From Candidatus Hydrogenedentota bacterium (GTDB lineage: Bacteria > Hydrogenedentota > Hydrogenedentia > Hydrogenedentales > JAEUWI01): DNA of 38,912 nt. Position 1 is the first letter of the stretch, and each line of letters begins with the position of its first letter. The stretch covers positions 1 to 38,912 of the forward strand of contig JAHBVV010000043.1 of the NCBI GenBank assembly GCA_019637335.1. The letters are read 5' to 3'. Both the position numbers and the translations under genes were made by a program. The notes under the pieces were generated by a model, which searched no databases, had not been told where the DNA came from, and worked only from the letters and a program-made list of their open reading frames with translations. Shown here piece after piece: positions 189 through 14,540 of this stretch.

Positions 189-1433
189 TCAAGGAAATTG
201 CGGGTCCTCGCCATTACCTGTCAGCCGCTTACGCACCGCCTCAATGATCTCACGGTGCTCCGGGCTCACCGGGCGCATGTATACATCGGCCATGGAAGAG
301 CTCGCCGAATGCCCAAGCCAGCGCTTCATATCGGAAATCGAACAGCCTTCGCGGGATCCAAACTCGGTGGCGCCAAGGTGGCGAAGAATGTAGAATCCAT
401 CGAGGGTTTCTTTGGTCTCGCCGATGCTGGTTCGGAGGCGGTTCCACCATTGGAGTACGGAGTCGGACCTGGTATGGACCAGGGGCTTGCCATTCCGGGT
501 CACGAACAGCGCTGAACCGCGTGGTCTCGGGTTCTCGTCAAGATATACTTTGATTGCACGCCAGACGCCGGGCGGTGTTGCGCCGTATCGGTCGATTCCG
601 GTCTTACTGCGGCGAAGGTCGTAGCCCTGTTCGTCGATGTCATCGACGCGTATTGCCGCCAGATCACCTTGGCCGAAGCCCAAACCGATCCCCATCCAGA
701 TCATGGCCCGGCCGCGGGCATCGGCCTTGTTGTGCAGTTTCTTGAGTTGCTCCAGGGTGGGGAGCTGCTTTTGTTTTGGCGCTCGGCCGGGCGAACGGTC
801 TACCGAATCCCAATTCCACGAGAGTTCCTGTTCGCCATATTCCTGCCGGCCGGCGCGATCCACAATCCGCTTAACGACCTGCATTTTGTGGCCGACCGTG
901 TTGACGGAAAAGCGCTTGGCCACCAGGTACTGATTGTAGGCTTCTACATCGAGGAGGGTCAGATCGGCCAGGCGCAGTCGGCCAACGGCGCCATCGCCGT
1001 GACGGTGGTTAAGAAACGCCAGGAAGTCCTTGATGTCCTTTTTCCGGTCGGCGGCAACCTGGGGGGAGATAGTGCCCGCAACCCGATTGCCCGGCTCCGC
1101 GCGCACACGGCCCTCCTCGTATCGGATGAGTCCGGAAGCGATGTGGAGAATAGAACCCGGCGCCGTGGCCACGTTTGCGGCAAGCTGGTCTTTTGTAGTG
1201 CGCTGGGCGCCATTCTTGCCCGTGAATGCCCACAACCGTTCTGAGTCATCACCGAGGTAGGCCGCGACCCAGGCATGGTACGCCCGTTCCGCTTCACCTT
1301 TGGAAACCATGCCAAAGCGCTGCTTCTTTGGCATTCCGGTCTCCCGGTCGCGGTAAGATACGTGCCACCCAATTCCACGCAATTTGGCATACTTGAGTTG
1401 AGGAACCCTGCGCTTCCGTTCTTGTGACGGCAC
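189..1433 (-). CDS. Tyrosine recombinase (phage-type integrase)
   Basis: A 414-aa site-specific recombinase that would cut and rejoin DNA at att sites. The C-terminal catalytic domain shows the RH box (R351-H352 in YILRHLGAT), the LGH box (H375) and the nucleophile Y385 (ADVYMRP). The N-terminal part (about 1-190) resembles a core-binding SAM-like domain. The usual first catalytic arginine (G-L-R before the x-L-x-x-L-R-W-x-D segment) is not apparent: the segment reads GLGFGQGDLAAIRVDDID. The residue before the RH box is also Tyr/Ile rather than His. Start is GTG with GGGAGG about 9 nt upstream. It reads away from the tRNA-Gly fragment at 1566-1616, the usual arrangement for an integrase at the end of its own element. 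I infer an integrative element extending left beyond the window. Family assignment is firm; activity is not certain. Confidence 0.9.
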   Translation of the reverse strand: MPSQERKRRVPQLKYAKLRGIGWHVSYRDRETGMPKKQRFGMVSKGEAERAYHAWVAAYLGDDSERLWAFTGKNGAQRTTKDQLAANVATAPGSILHIASGLIRYEEGRVRAEPGNRVAGTISPQVAADRKKDIKDFLAFLNHRHGDGAVGRLRLADLTLLDVEAYNQYLVAKRFSVNTVGHKMQVVKRIVDRAGRQEYGEQELSWNWDSVDRSPGRAPKQKQLPTLEQLKKLHNKADARGRAMIWMGIGLGFGQGDLAAIRVDDIDEQGYDLRRSKTGIDRYGATPPGVWRAIKVYLDENPRPRGSALFVTRNGKPLVHTRSDSVLQWWNRLRTSIGETKETLDGFYILRHLGATEFGSREGCSISDMKRWLGHSASSSMADVYMRPVSPEHREIIEAVRKRLTGNGEDPQFP

Positions 1434-1792: not shown

Positions 1793-3463
1793 TTATTCGG
1801 ACGGAACCCGTTCGGGGGGGCCTAATCGGGTGGATCGGATGACGGTGATGAGTTCTTCCGCGGCGGCGTCTTTGGTCAGGCAGCCTATCGCCCCCGCCTT
1901 TCGCATCGCTTCGGCCACTTCGGCTTCGTCGTGCATCGACAGCGATACGACGCTGATATCGGCGTCATGCTCGAGTATCTCTTTGGTCGCCTGGATTCCG
2001 GAGGTGTCTCCCAGGTTGACATCCATAATCACCACGTCGGGTCGGAGCGCGGCGGCGCGGCTGATGGCTTCCGGGCCGCTGCTGGCCTCGCCTATGACCG
2101 CTATGCCCGGCTCCCGTTCCAGCAAACCGGTCAGGGCGTCGCGCATAATGGTCTGGTCGTCGACAATAAGCACCTTGATGGAGGTGTCGTAGGCCGCGCC
2201 GGCATGGACGGCGGCACGCGCCTCCCCGTCCCGTTGCTGTACAAACCGTTTGAGTTTCCGGGAACGTGATGGGGGCGAAAGCACCGTGGCTCTCGTCCCT
2301 TTTCCGGGTGTGCTGTGGATCTGAAGCTCGCCCCCCAAATGGGTCAGGCGTTGTTGAACGCTGAAGAGGCCAAAGGTCCCGCGCTCCCCGCTGGGGCGTC
2401 CGAGAATGCTTGCATCGAACCCCGCCCCCTGGTCTTCCACGACAATTTCTATTCTGTCGTTGCCACTGGGGGCAATGGATATTGTGGCGGCGCCCGCGCC
2501 CGAGTGTTTGACGGCGTTGAACAGGAGTTCGCGGGCGCATTCGTAGAGCAGGTAGCGTTCTTCGTGGATGTCGGTTTCCGCCTGCTCGTCCCCGTTGATG
2601 TGCACGTCGAAACCGTGCTTCCGGCGAATTTCCTTGGCCAGCCAGTTCAGCCCGGCCACGAGGCCGGCCTCATCCAGGACGGGCGGGCTGAGTTCGACGG
2701 TAAGCGTCCGGGATGCCACAATGGCCTCCTTCAACGTGGACTCGATCTCTTTCAGCGATCGGATGTTACGTTCGTCCCGGCTTTCGAGGGCGCACACACT
2801 GAGCTGGAGGAGCGCCGACGCGATGAGTTGCTGGATATGATCGTGCAGGATGCGCGCGAGCCGCTTGCGCTCCCGCTGTTCGGCCTGCGTGAGCTCCATG
2901 GCCAGGGCTCTCAGCTGTATGACCCGTTCCTGCACCTCGCAGGTGCGCTCCGCCAGGCGCCGTTCCGCGGCGCGCCGCTCGGCGATTTCATCCTGCAAGG
3001 CCTTGTTCGTCCGGTACATCCCGACAAAGGCCGCCACTTTGGATTGGAGCACCGCCGGATTCAGGGGCTTGGTCAGATAGTCCACGGCGCCGACGCCATA
3101 CCCCAGAAGCGCATGGGTCTCTTCCTGGTAGTAGGCGCTCAGGAAGATAATCGGGAGGTGCTCCGTCTTCTTGCGCTGCTTGATAATCCTGGCCAGTTCG
3201 AGCCCGCCAACCTGGGGCATGCGGACGTCGAGCACCAACAGGGCAAACTCCTCCTTCATCGTCGCGAGAAGGGCCTCGTCCGCGTTGCGGGCGCGGACCA
3301 GGCGGTATCCGGGCGCGTCCAGAATGGCTTCCAGCGCGGTGAGATTTCGCTCGTCATCGTCGACGAGGAGAATGTTTGCCTGGAGCAGCCGGGGAGGGGG
3401 CTCGAAATCACCGGGCTCGCCGTCCCCCGCTGGCGGGAGCGTATCACGATAGTTGGAAATCAC
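1793..3463 (-). CDS. REC - HisKA_3-type histidine kinase - REC hybrid protein
   Basis: A 556-aa soluble signalling protein. An N-terminal receiver (about 30-145; D79, K132, TKP motif) is followed by a coiled coil, then a NarX/DesK-type dimerisation segment with phospho-acceptor H207 in ARILHDHIQQ. An HATPase domain follows (ELLFNAVKHSG, EDQGAGFD), and a C-terminal receiver has D481. The protein stops just after this second receiver, so there is no DNA-binding domain. Start is GTG with GAGGAG 9 nt upstream; that SD lies at the stop of the kinase gene 13 bp before it, so the two are co-transcribed. HisKA_3 kinases normally phosphorylate NarL/FixJ regulators, and one is encoded at 13326-14018. 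Pairing with it is a guess. No transmembrane segment is visible. Confidence 0.88.
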   Translation of the reverse strand: MISNYRDTLPPAGDGEPGDFEPPPRLLQANILLVDDDERNLTALEAILDAPGYRLVRARNADEALLATMKEEFALLVLDVRMPQVGGLELARIIKQRKKTEHLPIIFLSAYYQEETHALLGYGVGAVDYLTKPLNPAVLQSKVAAFVGMYRTNKALQDEIAERRAAERRLAERTCEVQERVIQLRALAMELTQAEQRERKRLARILHDHIQQLIASALLQLSVCALESRDERNIRSLKEIESTLKEAIVASRTLTVELSPPVLDEAGLVAGLNWLAKEIRRKHGFDVHINGDEQAETDIHEERYLLYECARELLFNAVKHSGAGAATISIAPSGNDRIEIVVEDQGAGFDASILGRPSGERGTFGLFSVQQRLTHLGGELQIHSTPGKGTRATVLSPPSRSRKLKRFVQQRDGEARAAVHAGAAYDTSIKVLIVDDQTIMRDALTGLLEREPGIAVIGEASSGPEAISRAAALRPDVVIMDVNLGDTSGIQATKEILEHDADISVVSLSMHDEAEVAEAMRKAGAIGCLTKDAAAEELITVIRSTRLGPPERVPSE

Positions 3464-3476
3464 AGCCGGGCGCTCC

Positions 3477-6400
3477 TCAGCGCTTGAGCCAAACGCGAAG
3501 CAAGGACAGGAGATGATCCACGTTGACGGGCTTGGCGATGTAGTCCGAAGCGCCGGCTTCCAGACATTTTTCGCGGTCCCCTTTCATGGCCTTGGCCGTC
3601 AGCGCGAGGATGGGCAGGCTGGCGTAGCGGGCGTCGGTTCGAATCTCCCGCATGGTTTCGAAGCCATCCATTTCCGGCATCATGATGTCGAGCAAGACCA
3701 CCTCGACGTGCGGTGTGCGGTGGAGCAGATCCATGGCCTGCCGCCCATCGGTTGCGGTGAGCACCTCCATGCCCTGGTTCTCGAGGACGCTGAGGAGCGC
3801 AAAGATGTTTCGCACGTCATCGTCGACGACCAGGGCGGTGCGCCCGCGCAGTGTTCTACGGGAGTCCTGCAGGCTTATCACGAGATCGCGCTTGGCCCGG
3901 GGCAGCTCGTTTACGTTTCGGTGCAGAAACAACGCGGTTTCATCGAAGAGCCGTTCCGGCGATCGCACATCCTTGAGCACGATGCTCTTGGCGACGGCGC
4001 GCAGCGCGGTTTCCTCCGACGCGGCCAGTTCTTTGCCCGTGAACACAATAATGGGCAGGTTGGCGTGTTCTTCGCGCTTCTGGATCCAATCGAGTAGTTC
4101 GAGACCACTCATATCGGGGAGGCGGAGGTCGAGAACGCAGCATTCGAACGCCCGGCTGGCGAGGAGCCGCATCGCATCCGCGCCGCTGGGGGCCACGGCA
4201 ATTTCGAGGTCGTCGTGGGCGAGCAATTCAACGATGCTCCGGCCCTCGATATGGTCATCCTCGACGACGAGAAGCCGCTTCGGCCACTGGGATACGAAGT
4301 CCTTCATGCGCTCCAGGGACGCCGAGATTTCCTGGGCCGTAGCGGGTTTTTGGAGGAAGGAAAATGCCCCATGCGCGATGCCGTCGTGGCGCCGGTCGTC
4401 GTCACCGGAAATGAGCAGAATGGGTATGTGCCGGGTGGACAGGTCGTTTTTCAACTGGTTCAGGAGCGTCCAGCCGAGCGTATCCGGCAGGAATATGTCC
4501 ATGGCGATAGCGGATGGCTGGTACTGCTGGACCAGGCGCAACCCCTGATCGCCGTTTGTCGCAATGAGTACTTTGAAGCCGGTTTCACGGGCGATCGCGT
4601 AAAGGAATTCAGCGTAATGCCGGTCGTCCTCTATCACCAGCACCGAAAGATCGCCCGTCCCGACCTCATCGCGATCGTCGGGGATTGGTTCGTCCGACTG
4701 CTTCTCCAACAATCGCGAGGCGGGCAGGGGCGCAACCTCCGCGACGGGTGGCGGGAGGATGTCCGATTCGGCGCCACGCAACTGGAGCGGCAGGAATAAT
4801 GTAAAGGTGCTGCCTTGCTCCGGGCTGCTCGCCACCGTGATCTCGCCGCCCAGCAGAACCGACTGTTCGCGGCATATCGCCAGCCCCAGCCCGGTCCCGC
4901 CATACTTTCGGCTTGTTCCGGCGTCCGCCTGCTGGAATGCCTCGAAGATGAGCTTCTGCTTTTCCGGGGGGATTCCAATCCCGGTGTCGGAAACGGTAAA
5001 GGCTACTACGCTGGCGGCCGCGTTGAGCGATTGATTGATGCTGTTCCAGCCTTCGTTTGCGATCCCGATCCGGAGGCACACCTCCCCCGTGGAGGTGAAC
5101 TTGAAGGCGTTGGACAGGAGGTTTTTGAGAATCTGCTGGACCCGCTTGGGGTCGGTAATCATTGTGGGCGGCAGTTCGGATTCAAGTTCAACGAGGAATT
5201 CGATATTCTTGGATTCGGCGACGTGGCGGAAGTCCCGTTCGGCGCCTTCCCGGATCACCGCAAAGGGCAGTTCCTCCAGTTCAATAGTCACGGTTCCCGA
5301 TTCGATCTTGGAGAGGTCGAGAATTTCGTTGATGAGGGAAAGGAGCTCCGAACCGGCGGAATACATGTTGCGGGCAAACTCGATCTGCTTGCTGTTGAGG
5401 TTGCCTTCGGAGTTTTCGGCAAGTTGCTGCCCGAGAATCAGTATCGAATTCAACGGTGTCCGTAATTCGTGGGACATATTGGCTAGGAATTCGGATTTGT
5501 ACTTTGACGTGAGCGCCAGCTCGGCCGCTTTCTCCTCCAGCGCGCGCCGGGCGAGCTCGACTTCCTCGTTTTTGCGTTCGACTTCGACGTTCTGGTCCGC
5601 CAGCAGGCGCGCTTTTTCTTCGAGCTCTTCGTTTGTCTGTTGCAACTCGCGTTTTTGCGCCTGGAGCTCCGAGGTCAGCTGCTGCGACTGCTGGAGCAGG
5701 TTTTCCGTCTGCATCGTGGCTTCGATGGTGTTAAATACCACACCGATGCTGAGAGTGAGCTGGTCGAGGAAGGTCAGGTGCGTCGCGGTAAACGACCCCA
5801 GTGACGCAAGCTCGATGACGGCCTTGGTTTCCCCTTCAAAGAGGGTCGGTATCACCACCACGCTTTCCGGGTACGCGCTGCCCAAACCGGAATGGATTTT
5901 GGTGTATTCCGAGGGTACATCGGTGAGTATGATGCGCTTCTTCTCAATCGCGCACTGGCCCGCGAGGCCCTTTCCCAGGCGAATTTGTTCGGGCTGGTCC
6001 TCAGGTTGCGCGTAGCCGGCAAGCAACCGCAGAAAGGGATCCGGGCCATCCACCATCTGGTAGATGACGCCCTGCTGCGCGTTGACAAGCGGCACCAGTT
6101 CCGACAGCAGCATCTGGCCCACGGTAAAAAGATCCCGCTGGCCCTGCAGCATCCCCGCAAACTTGGCCAGATTGGTCTTGAGCCAGTCCTGTTCCAGATT
6201 GCGCTCCGTGGTTACGCGGAGATTGTGGATCATGGTGTTGACGTTGTCTTTGAGCGTGGCCACTTCGCCGCTGGCCTCCACCTGAATGGATCGGGTGAGA
6301 TCGCCCTGGGTAACCGCCGTCGCCACTTCCGCGATTGCGCGCACCTGCGTGCTGAGATTGGCCGCCAGCAGGTTCACGTTGCCGGTGAGATCCTTCCAGG

Positions 6401-8972
6401 TGCCCGAGGCCCCGGGGACGTTGGCCTGGCCACCCAACCGCCCGTCCACGCCCACCTCGCGGGCAACGTTGGTTACCTGCTGGGCGAAGGTGGCCAGGGT
6501 GTCGGTCATATTGTTGATGGTTTCTGCCAGCGCCGCGATTTCGCCCTTGGCCTCCACCGTGAGTTTCTGTTCGAGGTTGCCCTCGGCCACGGCGGTCACC
6601 ACTTTTACAATACCGCGCACTTGATCCGTCAAATTGGTGGCCATGGAATTGACGTTGTCGGTGAGGTCCTTCCACGTGCCCGCCACGCCCGGCACCGTGG
6701 CCTGCCCGCCGAGCTTCCCGTCCGTGCCCACCTCGCGCGCGACGCGCGTGACTTCGGCCGCGAAGGCGTTGAGCTGGTCCACCATGGTGTTGATTGTGTT
6801 CTTGAGTTCGAGAATTTCGCCCTTGGCGTCGGCCACGATCTTGCGCGAGAGATCGCCCCGCGCCACCGCCGTCGTCACCTCGGCAATATTGCGCACCTGC
6901 GATGTGAGATTGGACGCCATCGAGTTGACGTTGTCGGTGAGATCCTTCCACGTGCCCGCCACGCCCGGCACTGTCGCCTGGCCCCCGAGCTTGCCATCCG
7001 TGCCCACTTCACGCGCAACGCGGGTCACTTCCGAGGCGAATCCGCGAAGCTGTTCCACCATGGTGTTAATGGTTTCCTTCAGCTGCAAGAGCTCCCCGCT
7101 CACATCCACCGTGATGGTCCGGGAGAGATCGCCCCGGGCCACGGCCGTCGTCACCTCCGCGATGTTGCGCACCTGGGCCGTGAGGTTGGAGGCCATGGAG
7201 TTCACGTTGTCCGTGAGGTCTTTCCAAGTTCCCGCCACCCCGGGCACATCGGCCTGGCCCCCGAGCTTGCCGTCCGTGCCCACTTCGCGCGCGACACGGC
7301 TCACCTCGGAGGCGAACGCATTCAACTGATCGACCATCGTGTTGATGGTCTCTTTCAGCTCAAGGATTTCCCCCTTGGCGTCCGCGGTAATTGTCCGGGA
7401 GAGGTCGCCGCGCGCCACGGCGGTCGTGACCTCGGCGATATTGCGCACCTGGGAGGTGAGATTCGACGCCATGGAGTTCACATTATCCGTAAGATCCTTC
7501 CACGTGCCCGCCACGCCCTGGACCTCGGCCTGCCCGCCGAGTTTTCCGTCGGTCCCCACCTCGCGCGCCACCCGGCTCACCTCGGAGGCAAAAGCGTTCA
7601 ACTGGTCGACCATCGTATTGATCGTATCTTTCAGTTCGAGGATCTCGCCCTTGGCGTCCGCGGTGATCTTGCGGGACAGGTCGCCGCGCGCCACGGCCGT
7701 CGTTACCTCGGCAATATTGCGCACCTGGGCGGTGAGGTTGGAGGCCATGGAATTCACGTTATCCGTGAGATCCTTCCACGTGCCCGCCACGCCCGGCACA
7801 TCGGCCTGTCCCCCAAGACGGCCTTCCGTGCCCACCTCGCGCGCCACGCGGCTTACCTCGAAGGCGAATGCGCGAAGCTGCTCCACCATCGTGTTGATGG
7901 TGTCCTTGAGCTCCAGCAGTTCGCCGCGAACATCCACCGTGATCTTGCGGGAGAGGTCGCCGCGCGCCACGGCGATGGTGACCTCCGTGATGTTGCGCAC
8001 CTGGGTCGTGAGGTTGGCCGCCATGAGGTTTACATTGTCGGTCAGGTCTTTCCAGGTTCCGGCCGCGCCCGGAACCACCGCCTGGCCGCCCAGGTTGCCG
8101 TCCGTTCCGACTTCGCGCGCGACGCGGGTGACCTCCGAGGCGAACGAGCGGAGCTGGTCCACCATGCCGTTCATCGCCTCCTTCTGCTGGAGGATTTCCC
8201 CGCGCACGTCGACCGTGATCTTCTTCGACAGATCGCCATTGGCGACCGCGATGGTGACTTCGGCGATGTTGCGCACCTGGGCAGTGAGGTTGGAGGCCAT
8301 CGAGTTAACGCTTTCCGTCAACTCCTTCCAAACGCCGCTCACCCCTTCAACCTGCGCCTGGCCGCCGAGGCGCCCGTCCGTGCCCACTTCCCGCGCCACC
8401 CGCGTCACCTCCGACGTGAACACGGCCAGCTGGTTCATCATGGTGCTCACCAATCTTGCGGATCGCAGAAACTCGCCCTCCAGCGGGCGACCGTCCACTT
8501 CCAGCGACATCGTCTGGCTCAGGTCCCCGCGGGCGACGGCTCCAACGGCGCGGGTGATCTCCATCGTGGGCCAGACCAGATCATCGATGAGCGCGTTGAT
8601 GTCGTCCACGCCATCCGCCCAGCTGCCGACCGCGCCCGGGACGCTAATCCGCTGGGACAAGCGGCCCTGTTTGCCCACCGCGTGGCTGATTCGCGAAAAC
8701 TCGCTTCCGCGCCGTTCCACCACCATCATGACGTCGTTCAGGGCATCCGCGATCTTCCCGTAGGTTCCTGTCCACTCATTGGGAAGCCGCCGCGTAAAGT
8801 CGCCGGACCGCAGCGCGAGGACAACGTCCAGAATCTGATCGATCGGATCCTTGGCTTCCGGGGCGGGCCCGTTATCCGCGGCGTCGCGCCCCTTGCCGTC
8901 GGCGCCGTGCTCACGTCGCCTGGACGGTCTCAACGGCTTCGTGGAACGATTCGCGGTGGATTTGATGTCCAT
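3477..8972 (-). CDS. Multi-HAMP hybrid histidine kinase with GAF and three receivers
   Basis: A very large (1831 aa) cytosolic hybrid kinase without signal peptide or membrane segment. Residues about 40-915 are a tandem HAMP array, including eight 92-aa units each carrying an AREVG-x-DG-x-LGGQA core. Then come a GAF domain (about 925-1085), a coiled coil, HisKA with H1168 ([11 protein letters not shown]), HATPase (N box around [11 protein letters not shown]1 DTGIGIP, G2 GTGLGLAI) and three receivers with D1492, D1615 and D1762. There is no Hpt domain. The architecture is like bacterial relatives of the fungal Nik1/Os-1 group III kinases, which sense osmotic or envelope stress through poly-HAMP arrays. 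It lies 61 bp downstream of the sigma-54 activator gene and 13 bp upstream of the REC-kinase-REC gene. Start ATG has AGGAAGGGA upstream. Partner and signal are inferred, not shown. Confidence 0.93.
6241..8448 (-). repeat. Eight 276-bp in-frame tandem repeats (poly-HAMP array)
   Basis: The same codon landmark in the AREVG core recurs at 8380, 8104, 7828, 7552, 7276, 7000, 6724 and 6448, exactly 276 bp each time with no indel. The central units are the most alike in DNA and protein, and the outer ones more diverged. That is the pattern expected of unequal exchange or recent homogenisation. Unit limits are arbitrary within the register. A ninth, degenerate unit precedes the first. Confidence 0.92.
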
Positions 8973-9033: not shown

Positions 9034-10491
9034 CTACAGGCCATACTCCTTTCGGCGACGCCACAGGGTGGTTTCATCGATTTCCAGAATCGTGGCGGCT
9101 TCCCGCAAGGAACGGGTTGACGCCAGGACACGGCGAATATGATGTTCCTGCAGGGTTGCCAGGGACACCGGATCCCCAACCCGGGGCTCGTCCGGCGGCG
9201 CTATCTGGCCTCCGGGCAAATGTTCCGCGCCGATGTGCCCATTCGTGCAAAACACCAGGGCGCGCTCAATGGCGTTGCGGAGCTCGCGCACGTTGCCGGG
9301 CCACGCGTACTCCGTCAGGGCCCGCTCGGCCTCGGGGGTAAACCCGGCGACCGGCCTGGACGCGCCCTTCGCCAGGGACTGAAGCAATTGGCGGGCCAGG
9401 TCGGGAATGTCCTCTTTCCGTTCCCGGAGCGGCGGCACCCTCAGTTCGACCACGTTCAGCCGGTACAGCAGGTCCTCGCGCAGCCGGCCGCGGGAAACGG
9501 CTTGTTCAATGTCCGCGTTGGTGGCCGATATAATGCGCACATCGGCGTGCCGTGTTCGGGCGTCGCCGACCGGCTCGTACTCCTTGTCCTGCAGGAAGCG
9601 GAGGAGCTTCGGCTGGAGTTCGACGGGCAAATCGCCGATTTCATCCAGAAAGAGGGTGCCGCCGTCACACTGGGCGACGCGGCCGGGATTGTCCTTCACG
9701 GCCCCGGTGAATGCGCCGCGAACGTGGCCGAACAATTCGCTTTCCAGCAGTTGGGCGGAGAGGGAGGGGCAGGACACGATCCCAAGTGCGCGGTCCCGCC
9801 GGCTGCTCCATTCATGGATTGCCCGTGCGAGTAACGTCTTGCCCGTGCCGTGTTCCCCGCGCAGCAACACCGGAGCGCCGGATGCGGCAACTTGCAGCGC
9901 GCGGTTCAAGACAGCCTTCATCGCGGCGCTCGCGCTGGGCCACTGGACCGAGCCGCCTTCCGGCGCGCCGGAAGTTCCATTGCCGTTGGCGCGGCTGCGC
10001 ACACTGGCCGCCGCCCCCGCACGCGCCGCCGCTTTCGCGAGCGTATCGGCGGTGAACGGCTTTTCCAGATAGTCGCAGGCCCCCTTCCGGACAGCGCCGA
10101 CGGCGCCTTCTATGGTCGGATAGGCGGTCATTACCACGATTCCAAGACCGGGCTTCTCCGATAGCAGGGGCAGAATATACTCCTCGCCATTGGCGTTGCT
10201 CAGATAGACATCCAGAAATACAACATCAATATCCAACTTGGACACAGCCACCAGCGCGTCTTCCGCATTGCTTACGGCCGTCACAAGATATCCGTAGCCT
10301 TCCAGGCAGCCGACAATATTCGCCCGCAGCCGGTGTTCATCTTCCACAACCAGCACACGGAGTGGGGGGATCTCCGGAGACCTGGCGTCGCCTTCCAACA
10401 AAATGGCTTCTCCAATCGCTTGCGGCGCCGGCGCCAACCGCGCCCGCGGGCGCCGGCGGTTTGCGACAGGCCGAAATTCGTTAATAGACAC
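9034..10491 (-). CDS. NtrC-family sigma-54-dependent response regulator
   Basis: A 485-aa enhancer-binding activator of RpoN RNA polymerase. The receiver (about 44-160) has acidic pocket E50/D51/E52, phospho-acceptor D94 and K144. The AAA+ domain has Walker A GEHGTGKT (212-219), the sigma-54-contact loop GAFTGA (259-264) and Walker B LFLDE (280-284). The C-terminus (about 443-485) is a Fis-type helix-turn-helix (REAATILEIDETTLWRRR). It is the first gene of the three-gene signalling operon and is transcribed divergently from PEP-CTERM genes that have a strong -24/-12 promoter. That makes them its likely target, as in PrsR-type control of PEP-CTERM genes in exosortase bacteria. Start appears to be GTG with a weak upstream GGTAAG. 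Confidence 0.93.
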   Translation of the reverse strand: MSINEFRPVANRRRPRARLAPAPQAIGEAILLEGDARSPEIPPLRVLVVEDEHRLRANIVGCLEGYGYLVTAVSNAEDALVAVSKLDIDVVFLDVYLSNANGEEYILPLLSEKPGLGIVVMTAYPTIEGAVGAVRKGACDYLEKPFTADTLAKAAARAGAAASVRSRANGNGTSGAPEGGSVQWPSASAAMKAVLNRALQVAASGAPVLLRGEHGTGKTLLARAIHEWSSRRDRALGIVSCPSLSAQLLESELFGHVRGAFTGAVKDNPGRVAQCDGGTLFLDEIGDLPVELQPKLLRFLQDKEYEPVGDARTRHADVRIISATNADIEQAVSRGRLREDLLYRLNVVELRVPPLRERKEDIPDLARQLLQSLAKGASRPVAGFTPEAERALTEYAWPGNVRELRNAIERALVFCTNGHIGAEHLPGGQIAPPDEPRVGDPVSLATLQEHHIRRVLASTRSLREAATILEIDETTLWRRRKEYGL

Positions 10492-11015
10492 GGCTTACCG
10501 CGAAAAAGGGGACGGCACGGTTCAATCTGGACCAAACCGGCGCGGCTCACTCCCTTCCAGTAACGCGAACAACGGGCGCATCCGTATAATTCCCGATCCC
10601 GGGTAATTCTCGTTACGCCCGCCACGCTCCTTACAATACGATACTACACTGGTGTGCGATTTCCCGTTACGCCTTGTGGTCCGGCTGTTGTAAATAACGC
10701 ACTTCGGGGCATTTCTCGCTGGGGCGTGGCAATGGTGGCCCGGGATTGACACGTGCGCGCGTTGGCCGGCGGATATCGTCCGGGTTTTTCCCGATGCGGC
10801 TTGCAGTATGTGGTTCATACCAGGCCCGCCCCGCGTATTACACAGATACGCGAACGCGCCCGCCGGTCGCGGTGACCGCCCCACGAGCACACGGAATTCT
10901 CATTAATCTGCGGTCTTCGAACGCATTGTGCCCGCCTCGCTCCGGGTTTTTTCCTAGTCCAGCGGCGCCCCGCAAGGCGAACGGAGGCCCAATCGGCAGC
11001 GGGAGTCCCCTATCA
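10492..11015. other. Intergenic DNA, no gene seen
   Basis: No convincing coding sequence or RNA gene is seen. Frames open here lack ribosome sites and family motifs. The element CGTTACGCC occurs twice and GTAACGCG once between about 10560 and 10680. These could be sites controlling the minus-strand signalling operon, but that is speculation. Confidence 0.4.
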
Positions 11016-11040
11016 GGGATAACCCCCACGGGTATACCCG
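11016..11040. promoter_or_regulatory. Candidate enhancer (UAS): two GGG-N4-CCC palindromes
   Basis: GGGATAACCC (11016-11025) and GGGTATACCC (11030-11039) lie 14 bp apart centre to centre. The second extends to the perfect 12-bp palindrome CGGGTATACCCG. They sit about 100-125 bp upstream of the -24/-12 promoter at 11139, the usual distance for NtrC-family binding sites. Binding by the divergent activator (9034-10491) is inferred. Confidence 0.5.
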
Positions 11041-11138
11041 GAGCCAGGAGTGATTTTACCGCACTCAAACAGCGATTCAGCATTGCCGTGCGGCGTAAGT
11101 CCAAGGAAATACTCCTTTCAGCTTCCCGGGGGCGTACG

Positions 11139-11154
11139 TGGCACGCCCTTTGCT
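11139..11154 (+). promoter_or_regulatory. Sigma-54 (-24/-12) promoter
   Basis: TGGCACG-N4-TTGCT matches the RpoN consensus fully, with GG (11140-11141) and GC (11152-11153) separated by exactly 10 bp. Predicted transcription start is near 11165, about 145 nt before the first PEP-CTERM start codon. An RpoN activator gene is divergently transcribed next to it. Confidence 0.85.
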
Positions 11155-11311
11155 CTCTTCGACCCAACGCCTTTGGGAAGTATGCCGGCGGCGCCGGCGT
11201 GACAGAGGCTGGGCGTCATCCTACCGTGCCGACATACATTGCACCGGTTCGATGGTTGAGCCGAACGCCGGCACATACCGGATGACAACGCAGTAGACAA
11301 GGAGTATGAAT

Positions 11312-12157
11312 ATGAGTCGATGGAGACGGTTTGGCCCGAAATGGGTCGCGATGGCGTTCATTCTCACTGGAAGCCAGGCCTACGCGATTACCACGGACGG
11401 TGACTGGTCCGACTGGTTCACCTACCACGGCAATCTGGCGTCCGATGACTGGGAGCAGGGGAACTACACTCTCCTTGACGGTCACATCCGCGCGCAAGCC
11501 GACGAGGAGGGCACAACTCCGGGCGGCGGCGGACAGGAGTACGACAATGAAGAGATCTTCTACGTGTTCCGGTATGCCGACAACAGCGATCCCAGTCTCG
11601 GCGGCACGATACATGTGGGCCTGGTGACCGGGTTCGATGCGGCGGGGCGCTTTGGGGCCGGTGGCCCGCATTACGCCGGCGATATGTTCTTCGACTTCGG
11701 CGCGACGGGCGGCTTCGATCTGGCGGTAGCGGTTGGCGCCGAGGACACCCCCGAAAACCTGGGCGGACTCCGGTTTTCCCAGGCCTGGGTCAACCTGGGC
11801 GCCCCAAACTGGACAACGCTCGGGGTCAATACCCACTACGATTCGGGCCCCTACCGGGTGGACGAAAACGCCGCGGGCGCGGTGGACTACACGGGGGCCG
11901 TGGAAGTCGCCTGGGGCGGCGCGGGCCCCCACAATTTCCTCGAAATCGCGTTGACCGTCGGGGGGGACGTGGCGAGCCTCCTGACCGACCCGGAGAACGG
12001 CGGCCTCGGACTGCACTGGACCATGCTCTGCGGCAATGACGTGGTGGATGTCATGGACGAAAACCCGCTCAATCCGGTGCCCGAGCCGGCCTCAATCGCC
12101 CTGCTTGGCATTGGCTTCATGGGACTGGCGCTACGGTCCCGTTTCCCGCAGTGCTAG
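11312..12157 (+). CDS. PEP-CTERM sorting-domain protein
   Basis: A 281-aa exported protein. It has an N-terminal signal peptide (cleavage probably after SQAYA), a beta-rich middle without recognised catalytic motifs, and a C-terminal PEP-CTERM tripartite tail: VPEPASIALLG, a hydrophobic helix and a basic end (LRSRFPQC). PEP-CTERM tails are cut and processed by exosortase and are linked to extracellular polysaccharide or biofilm formation; no exosortase lies in this window. The ATG at 11306 sits only 1 nt from AAGGAG, whereas the in-frame ATG at 11312 has 7 nt spacing and is chosen. It is first behind the sigma-54 promoter, with a second PEP-CTERM gene 29 bp downstream. Specific role unknown. 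Confidence 0.88.
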   Translation: MSRWRRFGPKWVAMAFILTGSQAYAITTDGDWSDWFTYHGNLASDDWEQGNYTLLDGHIRAQADEEGTTPGGGGQEYDNEEIFYVFRYADNSDPSLGGTIHVGLVTGFDAAGRFGAGGPHYAGDMFFDFGATGGFDLAVAVGAEDTPENLGGLRFSQAWVNLGAPNWTTLGVNTHYDSGPYRVDENAAGAVDYTGAVEVAWGGAGPHNFLEIALTVGGDVASLLTDPENGGLGLHWTMLCGNDVVDVMDENPLNPVPEPASIALLGIGFMGLALRSRFPQC

Positions 12158-12186: not shown

Positions 12187-12960
12187 ATGCGAACAACGAC
12201 AAGAAGAAGATCCCCCATGCAGCATCGAAAGGCTTTCCCGGCAATGGCCCTCGCCCTGGGCGCCGGTCTGGCGGCCGCAACAATGCTGGCGCCGGGCCGC
12301 GCCGGGGCCGTCGTCATCTACGACAACGGCGGGCCATCGGTCCTCAACGTCGTCAGCGACCAGGATGACCTCGGCAATGTTCCCGGGGTGGACTTGCCTA
12401 TCATCTTGAGTGATGATTTCGCGCTGGACGTGGACTCGGAATTGCAGGATGTCCACTGGTGGGGTTCCTACGCGCTGGACGTGGCGCTGGAGCTCCCCGA
12501 GGACGACTTCCGGCTGCAATTGTTCGCCGATGTCGGCGGCGCGCCGGAGATCAACCCCTTCTATTCCGTCGGTCTCGGCGAGGTGGGCCGCGTGGATACG
12601 GGCGATACCGACGCGGCTGGCAACCCGATCTACGAGTACTGGGTTGACTTGGCCGATCCAATCACCCTGAGCGCCGGCGTCACCTACCACCTCTCCATCG
12701 CAAATGACACAAGCGAGTCCATCGCCACCTGGCTGTGGGCAGCTTCCACGGAGACCGAGCGGTTCGGGTACCACCTGCGAGCCGGCGACGACATGCTCTG
12801 GTTGCCTCAAATGGTTCCCCCGAACCTCGCCTTCAATCTAACCGGCGAACCCCTGAATGGCGGGGCCCCCATCCCCGAACCCGCCACCGTCTCGCTGCTC
12901 GGCCTCGGCGTCGCGGGCCTGGTTGCGCGGTACCGCGGGAAGCCAAACCGGCGATCGTAG
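12187..12960 (+). CDS. PEP-CTERM sorting-domain protein
   Basis: A 257-aa exported protein with a basic N-terminus, a signal peptide ending near GRAGA, and a domain rich in D, G and aromatic residues. It closes with a PEP-CTERM tail (PIPEPATVSLLGLG, hydrophobic helix, RYRGKPNRR). The ATG at 12187 is chosen because AAAAGGAG lies 7 nt upstream; a longer in-frame start at 12151 would overlap the preceding gene and has no ribosome site. Both PEP-CTERM genes share the leader AAGGAGTAT. It is co-transcribed with the preceding PEP-CTERM gene and followed by a long hairpin at 12995-13044. Probably anchored or secreted to the surface through exosortase processing. Function beyond that is unknown. Confidence 0.87.
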   Translation: MRTTTRRRSPMQHRKAFPAMALALGAGLAAATMLAPGRAGAVVIYDNGGPSVLNVVSDQDDLGNVPGVDLPIILSDDFALDVDSELQDVHWWGSYALDVALELPEDDFRLQLFADVGGAPEINPFYSVGLGEVGRVDTGDTDAAGNPIYEYWVDLADPITLSAGVTYHLSIANDTSESIATWLWAASTETERFGYHLRAGDDMLWLPQMVPPNLAFNLTGEPLNGGAPIPEPATVSLLGLGVAGLVARYRGKPNRRS

Positions 12961-13325: not shown

Positions 13326-14018
13326 TCAGCCCTGCGCCTTGATCGACCAGCGCATCGCGCATTCCTTCAATTCATGGGCGGACGAGAGATGGAGCTTGCG
13401 CCGGATATTGGCCCGGTGCGTCTCCACAGTCTTCACCCCAATCCCCAGATAGGACGCGATGGCCACCGTGGACATGCCCTCGCCAATCGCCTTGAATACC
13501 TGGAGTTCGCGCATGCTCAATTGCTTGATCAGATTGCCCGATGGCTGGCGCCCATCCACGTCGCCAGACCGCCCGCCGTCCAGCAAATCCTCCCCCAGGT
13601 ACGTCTCGCCCGCCAGGACGCACCGGATCGCCGCCAGCATTTCGTCCAGCGCCGAGACCTTCGAAATGAAACCGCTAGCGCCCGCCGCGATCGCCTGCCG
13701 GGCATACACCGGCTCCGCAAAAACCGACACAATTAACACCCGGGTTCCCGGCGACAACTTCTGGATGCGCCGCGTTACATCGATCCCGTCGCCGTCCTGC
13801 AGGCCAATATCCACGATCGCCACATCCGGCTGGTGCTCAAGAATCAGCTGGAGACCATCCCGCGCGCCCTCCGCCGTGCCACACACCTCAAGATCGGCCC
13901 GCTCGCCTATTAAGCCGCAGAGCCCCTGCCGGATGAGCGGGTGGTCATCAACCACCACAATCCGACCGCACTGCCCTGGCGGCCGCGCGGGCAGGCCTCC
14001 TCCCCGGGTATCGTCCAT
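13326..14018 (-). CDS. NarL/FixJ-family response regulator
   Basis: A 230-aa two-component regulator. The receiver has acidic pair D24/D25, phospho-acceptor D70 and a K in FISKVSAL. The C-terminal LuxR-type HTH contains LSMRELQVFKAIGEGMST and GIGVKTVETHRANIRRKL. ATG at 14018 is chosen because GAAGGA lies 7 nt upstream and the receiver starts soon after; a longer open frame to 14135 has no domain. Many receivers of this class are paired with HisKA_3 kinases, and the only one in the window is the REC-kinase-REC protein at 1793-3463. That pairing is inferred. Its targets are unknown. Confidence 0.92.
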   Translation of the reverse strand: MDDTRGGGLPARPPGQCGRIVVVDDHPLIRQGLCGLIGERADLEVCGTAEGARDGLQLILEHQPDVAIVDIGLQDGDGIDVTRRIQKLSPGTRVLIVSVFAEPVYARQAIAAGASGFISKVSALDEMLAAIRCVLAGETYLGEDLLDGGRSGDVDGRQPSGNLIKQLSMRELQVFKAIGEGMSTVAIASYLGIGVKTVETHRANIRRKLHLSSAHELKECAMRWSIKAQG

Positions 14019-14540
14019 TTCCGTATCCTTCACGCGGCGGCAAGCACACGCAACCCATAGCCCGGCACCCGCGGCGCTCCGATACGCAACTCCCGCGGGA
14101 TTCGCGCGGAGCCCACGCCGCCAACGGGGAGCCACTGCCCGCCAAGCCCGTTAACCAGCATGCAGCATACACCACGCCCGCACCCGCTTTTCCAATTCGC
14201 ACCACCCCGCCCCACGCCGCAGGCGCGCCAGGATCGCGGACGTTCATGTCCGCGGCAAATGTAGGATAGCCGTCCCGACTGTCCACCGCGCCGGAGGAGC
14301 AAAGTGTCGTGGAGATTCAAGTCCGCTGCAGGACGAGGCACAAGACATTTCCTAATCGATTTGAACGTGAAGAGGCCCAGGCCCCAATGCGTTCCGCTCC
14401 TCGGGACTCCGATTACGTCTCTTTATGTCCCGAACTCCCTCTGCCGCGCTTACTCGCATGTTAACGGACCGTTCGCGCTATTTCCGCGCGTCGCTGCGTC
14501 AGACGGCAAAAACGTTATGATGGCGCGAACTTCGCCCTGT
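14019..14540. other. Intergenic DNA with one dispersed repeat
   Basis: About 520 bp between the response-regulator start and the sulfatase stop. No coding sequence is supported. It holds the dispersed repeat at 14261-14285 and, just before it, the hairpin GCGGAC-GTTCAT-GTCCGC (14236-14253). Confidence 0.5.
14261..14285 (+). repeat. Dispersed repeat, copy 1
   Basis: A 25-bp stretch beginning GTAGGATAGCCGTCCCG matches 35904-35928 at 23 of 25 positions. Both copies lie in intergenic DNA, which suggests a genome-wide interspersed repeat. Confidence 0.6.

Follow-up and report, generated by a model that had tools for sequence, protein, structure and literature searches.

A sigma-54 promoter in front of PEP-CTERM genes in Candidatus Hydrogenedentota and a candidate Kdp/Trk-type regulator beside it

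The stretch of DNA analysed here, referred to as the window, comprises 38,912 nucleotides of contig JAHBVV010000043.1 (assembly GCA_019637335.1) from a Candidatus Hydrogenedentota bacterium. A regulator-kinase operon and two PEP-CTERM genes diverge from an intergenic region with a -24/-12 promoter and three short palindromes:

1793-3463, reverse strand: second soluble hybrid kinase (REC-HisKA_3-HATPase-REC), in the regulator operon
3477-8972, reverse strand: soluble hybrid kinase with about 8 HAMP, GAF, HisKA, HATPase and 3 REC domains, 61 bp after the regulator
9034-10491, reverse strand: NtrC-type response regulator (REC, AAA+ with GAFTGA, Fis HTH), N-terminal start uncertain
11001-11010, no strand: third GGG-N4-CCC palindrome (GGGAGTCCCC), missed in the preliminary description
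11016-11025, no strand: GGG-N4-CCC palindrome (GGGATAACCC), candidate activator site
11030-11039, no strand: GGG-N4-CCC palindrome (GGGTATACCC), candidate activator site
11139-11154, forward strand: -24/-12 sigma-54 promoter TGGCACG-N4-TTGCT (TGGCACGCCCTTTGCT)
11165, forward strand: predicted transcription start, placed by sigma-54 geometry about 12 nt past the -12 GC
11306-12157, forward strand: PEP-CTERM gene 1 (283 aa, Pfam PF07589)
12188-12960, forward strand: PEP-CTERM gene 2 (DUF7901 plus PEP-CTERM; ATG at 12188), 30 bp past gene 1

The preliminary description had proposed a perfect sigma-54 promoter in front of two PEP-CTERM genes, two GGG-N4-CCC palindromes 14 bp apart upstream of it, and a divergent operon starting with an NtrC-type activator that has GAFTGA; all of these are present. 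Both PEP-CTERM genes score above the Pfam cut-off and likely form one operon. The genome holds 18 PEP-CTERM motifs above the cut-off and two exosortases, the combination by which the sorting system is recognized. No report on PEP-CTERM proteins or exosortases in Hydrogenedentota was found in the openly accessible literature. The 5' leader gave no Rfam match, and its score for structured RNA was z = -1.88.

The promoter TGGCACG-CCCT-TTGCT has the GG-N10-GC spacing and is the sole site in the window that matches the consensus in 12 of 12 positions. Pattern and profile searches of the genome (7.16 Mb) gave four perfect copies, that of the window included; one lies 39 bp above the start of rpoN, another 56 bp above a gene with a FlgB-like N-terminus, and the fourth (C20:22351) has no clear gene within the stretch read. 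The presence of rpoN, whose absence had been named as a refutation, was confirmed, with a single copy in the genome. Allowing at most one mismatch gives 68 sites genome-wide, compared to 71 with the pattern reversed. Taken by itself, the motif therefore proves little; what exceeds chance is its position before PEP-CTERM genes. These one-mismatch counts are what speaks for the reading that the window match is a chance sequence and that the operon uses another sigma factor. This is very improbable given the 12/12 match, its placement where such sites usually lie ahead of PEP-CTERM genes and the conservation of homologous promoters in relatives, since -24/-12 promoters also precede homologues of PEP-CTERM gene 1 from the same genus and family. 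Sequence comparison thus supports the site as a real sigma-54 promoter of the PEP-CTERM operon.

Other -24/-12-like sites were encountered in these scans. An 11/12 site (TGGCCCGCCAATTGCT) at 9383-9398 on the reverse strand lies within the regulator gene and faces the kinase, and the same 16-mer recurs at G000:C40:21443. Two adjacent sites on opposite strands at G000:C13:133997 and 134024 (L037; TGGCACATTACTTGCT and TGGCACAACACTTGCT) suggest a divergent sigma-54 promoter pair. The 16-mer TGCCACGTTC(T/C)TTGCA is a dispersed repeat found in nine places in G000 (C4:231763, C4:233932, C5:248031, C8:208633, C11:119807, C16:18578, C38:43393, C39:54668 and C41:812).

Nine Hydrogenedentota genomes supplied 100 PEP-CTERM genes whose upstream regions place the window promoter in a wider context. 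Start codons were set by a simple rule, which blurs the distances and leaves the comparison with controls unaffected. A site matching at least 10 of 12 positions lies within 320 bp upstream of 55 of the 100 genes, compared to 3 for antisense, 1-4 for reversed and 3-10 for wrongly spaced controls. At a threshold of at least 11/12, such sites precede 23 genes, against 0-1 in the antisense or reversed and 0-3 in the wrongly spaced controls. Sigma-54 control of PEP-CTERM genes therefore appears to be widespread in Hydrogenedentota.

When the sequences above these promoters were searched for words in an unbiased way, the palindrome GTCA-N4-TGAC emerged. Its exact form is found in 22 of the 55 promoters, while five other palindromes were found in none and other spacings in 0-1. 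Within 500 bp, 32 sites are distributed over 29 of the 100 genes, where 0.75 sites would be expected, and their commonest position is 110-113 bp above the promoter. The longer form TNGTCANNNNTGACNA has 41 copies in six genomes compared to 12 for its reverse, and by comparison of coordinates about 16 of the 41 precede PEP-CTERM genes or the activator of the exosortase locus. The sequence statistics that define the promoter class thus also define GTCA-N4-TGAC as a new palindrome and the usual putative upstream site of these promoters.

The probable general activator is P0001 (C39:3935-5041), a sigma-54 activator without a receiver domain, encoded about 5-7 kb before the genes for a TPR protein and an exosortase. 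Orthologues with 53-80% identity and a nearly invariant recognition helix occur in 12 of the 13 genomes tested, and the TPR protein and exosortase are found in the P0001 region of the genome itself and of six relatives. Eight of the 12 orthologues have a -24/-12 site of their own upstream (at least 10/12). Furthermore, the promoters of P0001 and of its G001 orthologue each have an exact GTCA-N4-TGAC at 154 bp upstream. P0001 is the likely reader of this palindrome.

This arrangement can be compared with the PrsK/PrsR/PrsT regulon that controls PEP-CTERM genes in Proteobacteria (Haft 2006, PMC1569441), under which DVUA0057 in D. vulgaris is also counted here (PMC3333781); in Aquincola, pepA is RpoN-dependent (PMC9850573). 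In both cases, PEP-CTERM genes stand behind -24/-12 promoters with an activator site upstream, and a sigma-54 activator as well as a TPR protein are likewise encoded at the exosortase/EPS locus of Hydrogenedentota. The systems differ in phylum, in the absence of a receiver domain from the probable general activator P0001, and in the enhancer, which in Proteobacteria is a 17-nt box ending in TTTACA (for example TGTCGATATATTTTACA on a Vibrio alfacsensis plasmid with true PrsK/PrsR). The half-sites TGTC/GACA look alike in both enhancers, but their spacing is 6 in Hydrogenedentota and 9 in the Proteobacterial box. TTTACA was found in only 2 of the 55 upstream regions and TGTC-N9-GACA in none, ruling out the Proteobacterial box as the Hydrogenedentota enhancer. 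With the PrsR model (TIGR02915, cut-off 502.6 bits), two proteins of the genome were scored, the window regulator (306) and P0001 (249); both are ruled out as PrsR, while true PrsR controls scored 585 and 666. No protein of the genome exceeds the cut-off for PrsK (TIGR02916), the best score being 107 bits against 300 and confined to the C-terminal kinase part. The TPR protein beside the exosortase is related to PrsT but below threshold (101 compared to a cut-off of 312). The comparison with PrsK/PrsR that had been drawn for this locus hence stands for the sigma-54 PEP-CTERM promoters and the missing PrsK, but not for the activator.

The window promoter itself has no exact GTCA-N4-TGAC upstream, its best match, with two mismatches, being at chance level. 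Degenerate or distant sites could allow P0001, or another of the roughly 20 sigma-54 activators of this genome, to serve it. More specifically, it may be an ordinary P0001 promoter whose GTCA-N4-TGAC enhancer has decayed or lies farther off, with the neighbouring regulator controlling something else and GGG-N4-CCC being incidental. Homologous PEP-CTERM genes, including a paralogue of the window gene on C39 of the same genome, do carry GTCA-N4-TGAC, other PEP-CTERM promoters of this genome also lack the exact palindrome, and a two-mismatch version (ATCA-GGGA-TAAC) is present at 11012-11023. However, two-mismatch matches are found at about half of the promoters even with scrambled palindromes, and the GGG-N4-CCC cluster is improbable by chance and lies at the right distance; we consider this reading unlikely, albeit the strongest of the competing ones.

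The centre of GGGTATACCC is 104.5 bp upstream of the first base of the promoter, compared to a modal distance of 105.5 for GTCA-N4-TGAC elsewhere, so that the cluster occupies the position of the enhancer at other promoters. In dinucleotide shuffles of the intergenic region, a GGG-N4-CCC pair within 20 bp is rare (p=0.0045), although 20% of whole-window shuffles contain such a pair somewhere. Three palindromes within 40 bp were obtained in none of 4000 intergenic and none of 200 whole-window shuffles. For NtrC dimers bound to one face of the DNA, a distance of 14-15 bp from palindrome to palindrome is unusual. Genome-wide, GGG-N4-CCC is found near 5 of 63 -24/-12 sites, with about 4 expected, and tandem pairs number 4 compared to 6 for reversed-pattern controls. 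Moreover, the promoters of the homologous PEP-CTERM genes do not contain it, and many of them have GTCA-N4-TGAC instead. The earlier expectation of motif enrichment before PEP-CTERM genes is consequently borne out for -24/-12 and fails for GGG-N4-CCC, and the combination of both as a genome-wide code is rejected. The palindromes are a local feature of the window promoter.

The single-copy rpoN gene (G000:C6:178891, L001) has, besides its perfect -24/-12 site, a lone GGGTATTCCC 97 bp upstream of the promoter, one letter off the window palindrome GGGTATACCC, and autoregulation of rpoN is possible. A LuxR/NarL-type response regulator is encoded at 13326-14135 on the reverse strand, beyond the PEP-CTERM genes at a distance of 0.4 kb, and the HisKA_3 hybrid kinase (1793-3463) is of the type that would naturally partner it.

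These neighbours bear on the question of which protein would bind the cluster. Another activator, or the LuxR-type regulator with the HisKA_3 kinase, may bind GGG-N4-CCC, and the site may serve the divergent operon instead of the PEP-CTERM promoter. The number of sigma-54 activators in the genome, the proximity of the LuxR-type gene and the occurrence of GGGTATTCCC at rpoN, far from the window regulator, are in line with this. Against it, the start of the regulator is some 510 bp away from the cluster, whereas the -24/-12 site is only 100 bp away, which puts the cluster in the position of an enhancer. Such a binder seems improbable to us, slightly more so than a decayed P0001 site. That the window regulator reads GGG-N4-CCC is plausible.

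The product of 9034-10491 has Walker A and B motifs and the receiver residues in addition to the GAFTGA loop which, together with rpoN in the genome, are the features of a bacterial enhancer-binding protein. In the tree, it is nested in a clade of Hydrogenedentota and Desulfobacterota regulators encoded with kdpA/kdpB or trkA/trkH (support 97/90 inside, 100/100 for the wider clade), which points to a Kdp/Trk ancestry on statistical grounds, and has a long branch (0.77). Full-length relatives (49-59% identity) adjoin a membrane kinase and in most cases kdpA/kdpB, two Deltaproteobacterial/Desulfobacterota contigs have relatives with TrkA/TrkH-like neighbours, and a truncated 59% match exists in the same family (L072, G006). 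Known regulators of Kdp potassium uptake include DVU3334 of D. vulgaris, whose role as a sigma-54 regulator of kdp has been tested (PMC3333781).

Unlike these systems, the window locus has PEP-CTERM neighbours and no kdp or trk genes, and its recognition helix is IDETTLWRRRKEYGL in place of IDQATLWRRRKQYGI of the clade, with at least three positions changed. At several Kdp/Trk loci, TTGCA-N3-TGCAA lies between the regulator and kinase genes, ahead of a -24/-12 site. In the intergenic region of the window it has no match with fewer than three mismatches, and a Kdp enhancer is rejected there. More generally, Kdp-type operons from Hydrogenedentota and Desulfobacterota, as well as loci with Trk-type neighbours (together L145-L154, L071, L073, L078), frequently have CCTTGCA-N3-TGCAAGG above -24/-12, and these loci can be described from their sequences as a defined putative sigma-54 potassium-uptake regulon.

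The membrane kinase of Kdp systems is replaced at the window locus by the soluble multi-HAMP hybrid kinase. As had been proposed, this kinase (3477-8972) takes the place of a membrane PrsK, with no predicted membrane segment, and the window kinases are soluble by hydropathy (1.29 compared to 3.06 for a Kdp-linked kinase). The "different wiring" postulated for the locus applies chiefly when it is compared with Kdp two-component systems and not in the PrsR frame, the regulator being of the Kdp/Trk type. A known kind of soluble hybrid kinase with multiple HAMP domains is the fungal group III type (Nik1/Os-1), which shares the HAMP array, kinase core and receiver with the window kinase. The latter differs in being encoded in a bacterial operon together with an NtrC-type regulator and in having about 8 HAMP domains, a GAF domain and three receivers.

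Three genus mates lack the regulator, yet the homologous PEP-CTERM genes in their genomes keep -24/-12 promoters; PEP-CTERM control in general therefore does not require the regulator. Because of this absence, the regulator-kinase locus may be mobile. The gene at 189-1433 (reverse strand), at the end of the operon, has a weak match to tyrosine recombinases/integron integrases.

Taken together, the site at 11139-11154 would be a working sigma-54 promoter of a two-gene PEP-CTERM operon and part of a programme, extending across Hydrogenedentota, that uses sigma-54 promoters for PEP-CTERM (exosortase-sorted, presumably surface) proteins. Most of these promoters are probably activated via GTCA-N4-TGAC about 110 bp upstream by the receiver-less activator of the exosortase/polysaccharide locus. 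At the window promoter, the divergently encoded Kdp/Trk-family regulator would instead be phosphorylated by the adjoining soluble multi-HAMP hybrid kinase and then bind the GGG-N4-CCC cluster that lies 109-138 bp upstream. We favour this explanation as a whole by a small measure over an even chance. Its local step, activation by the neighbouring Kdp-clade regulator, which we infer from position, falls just short of even. The fuller proposition that a Kdp/Trk regulator has been re-wired to a soluble multi-HAMP kinase and a new GGG-N4-CCC site and activates exosortase-sorted proteins, with the general regulon left to the receiver-less activator and GTCA-N4-TGAC, is more tentative still.

Sigma-54 control of PEP-CTERM genes has so far been described only from Proteobacteria, with PrsK/PrsR. 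That it is found throughout Hydrogenedentota, where the enhancer and the activators are different ones, suggests either an old link between sigma-54 and exosortase substrates in which the activator was exchanged, or two origins. What results is a regulon open to testing, its site defined and its candidate activator named, in a little-studied phylum, and, if the local reading is true, an ion-uptake regulator may have been re-assigned to the cell surface.
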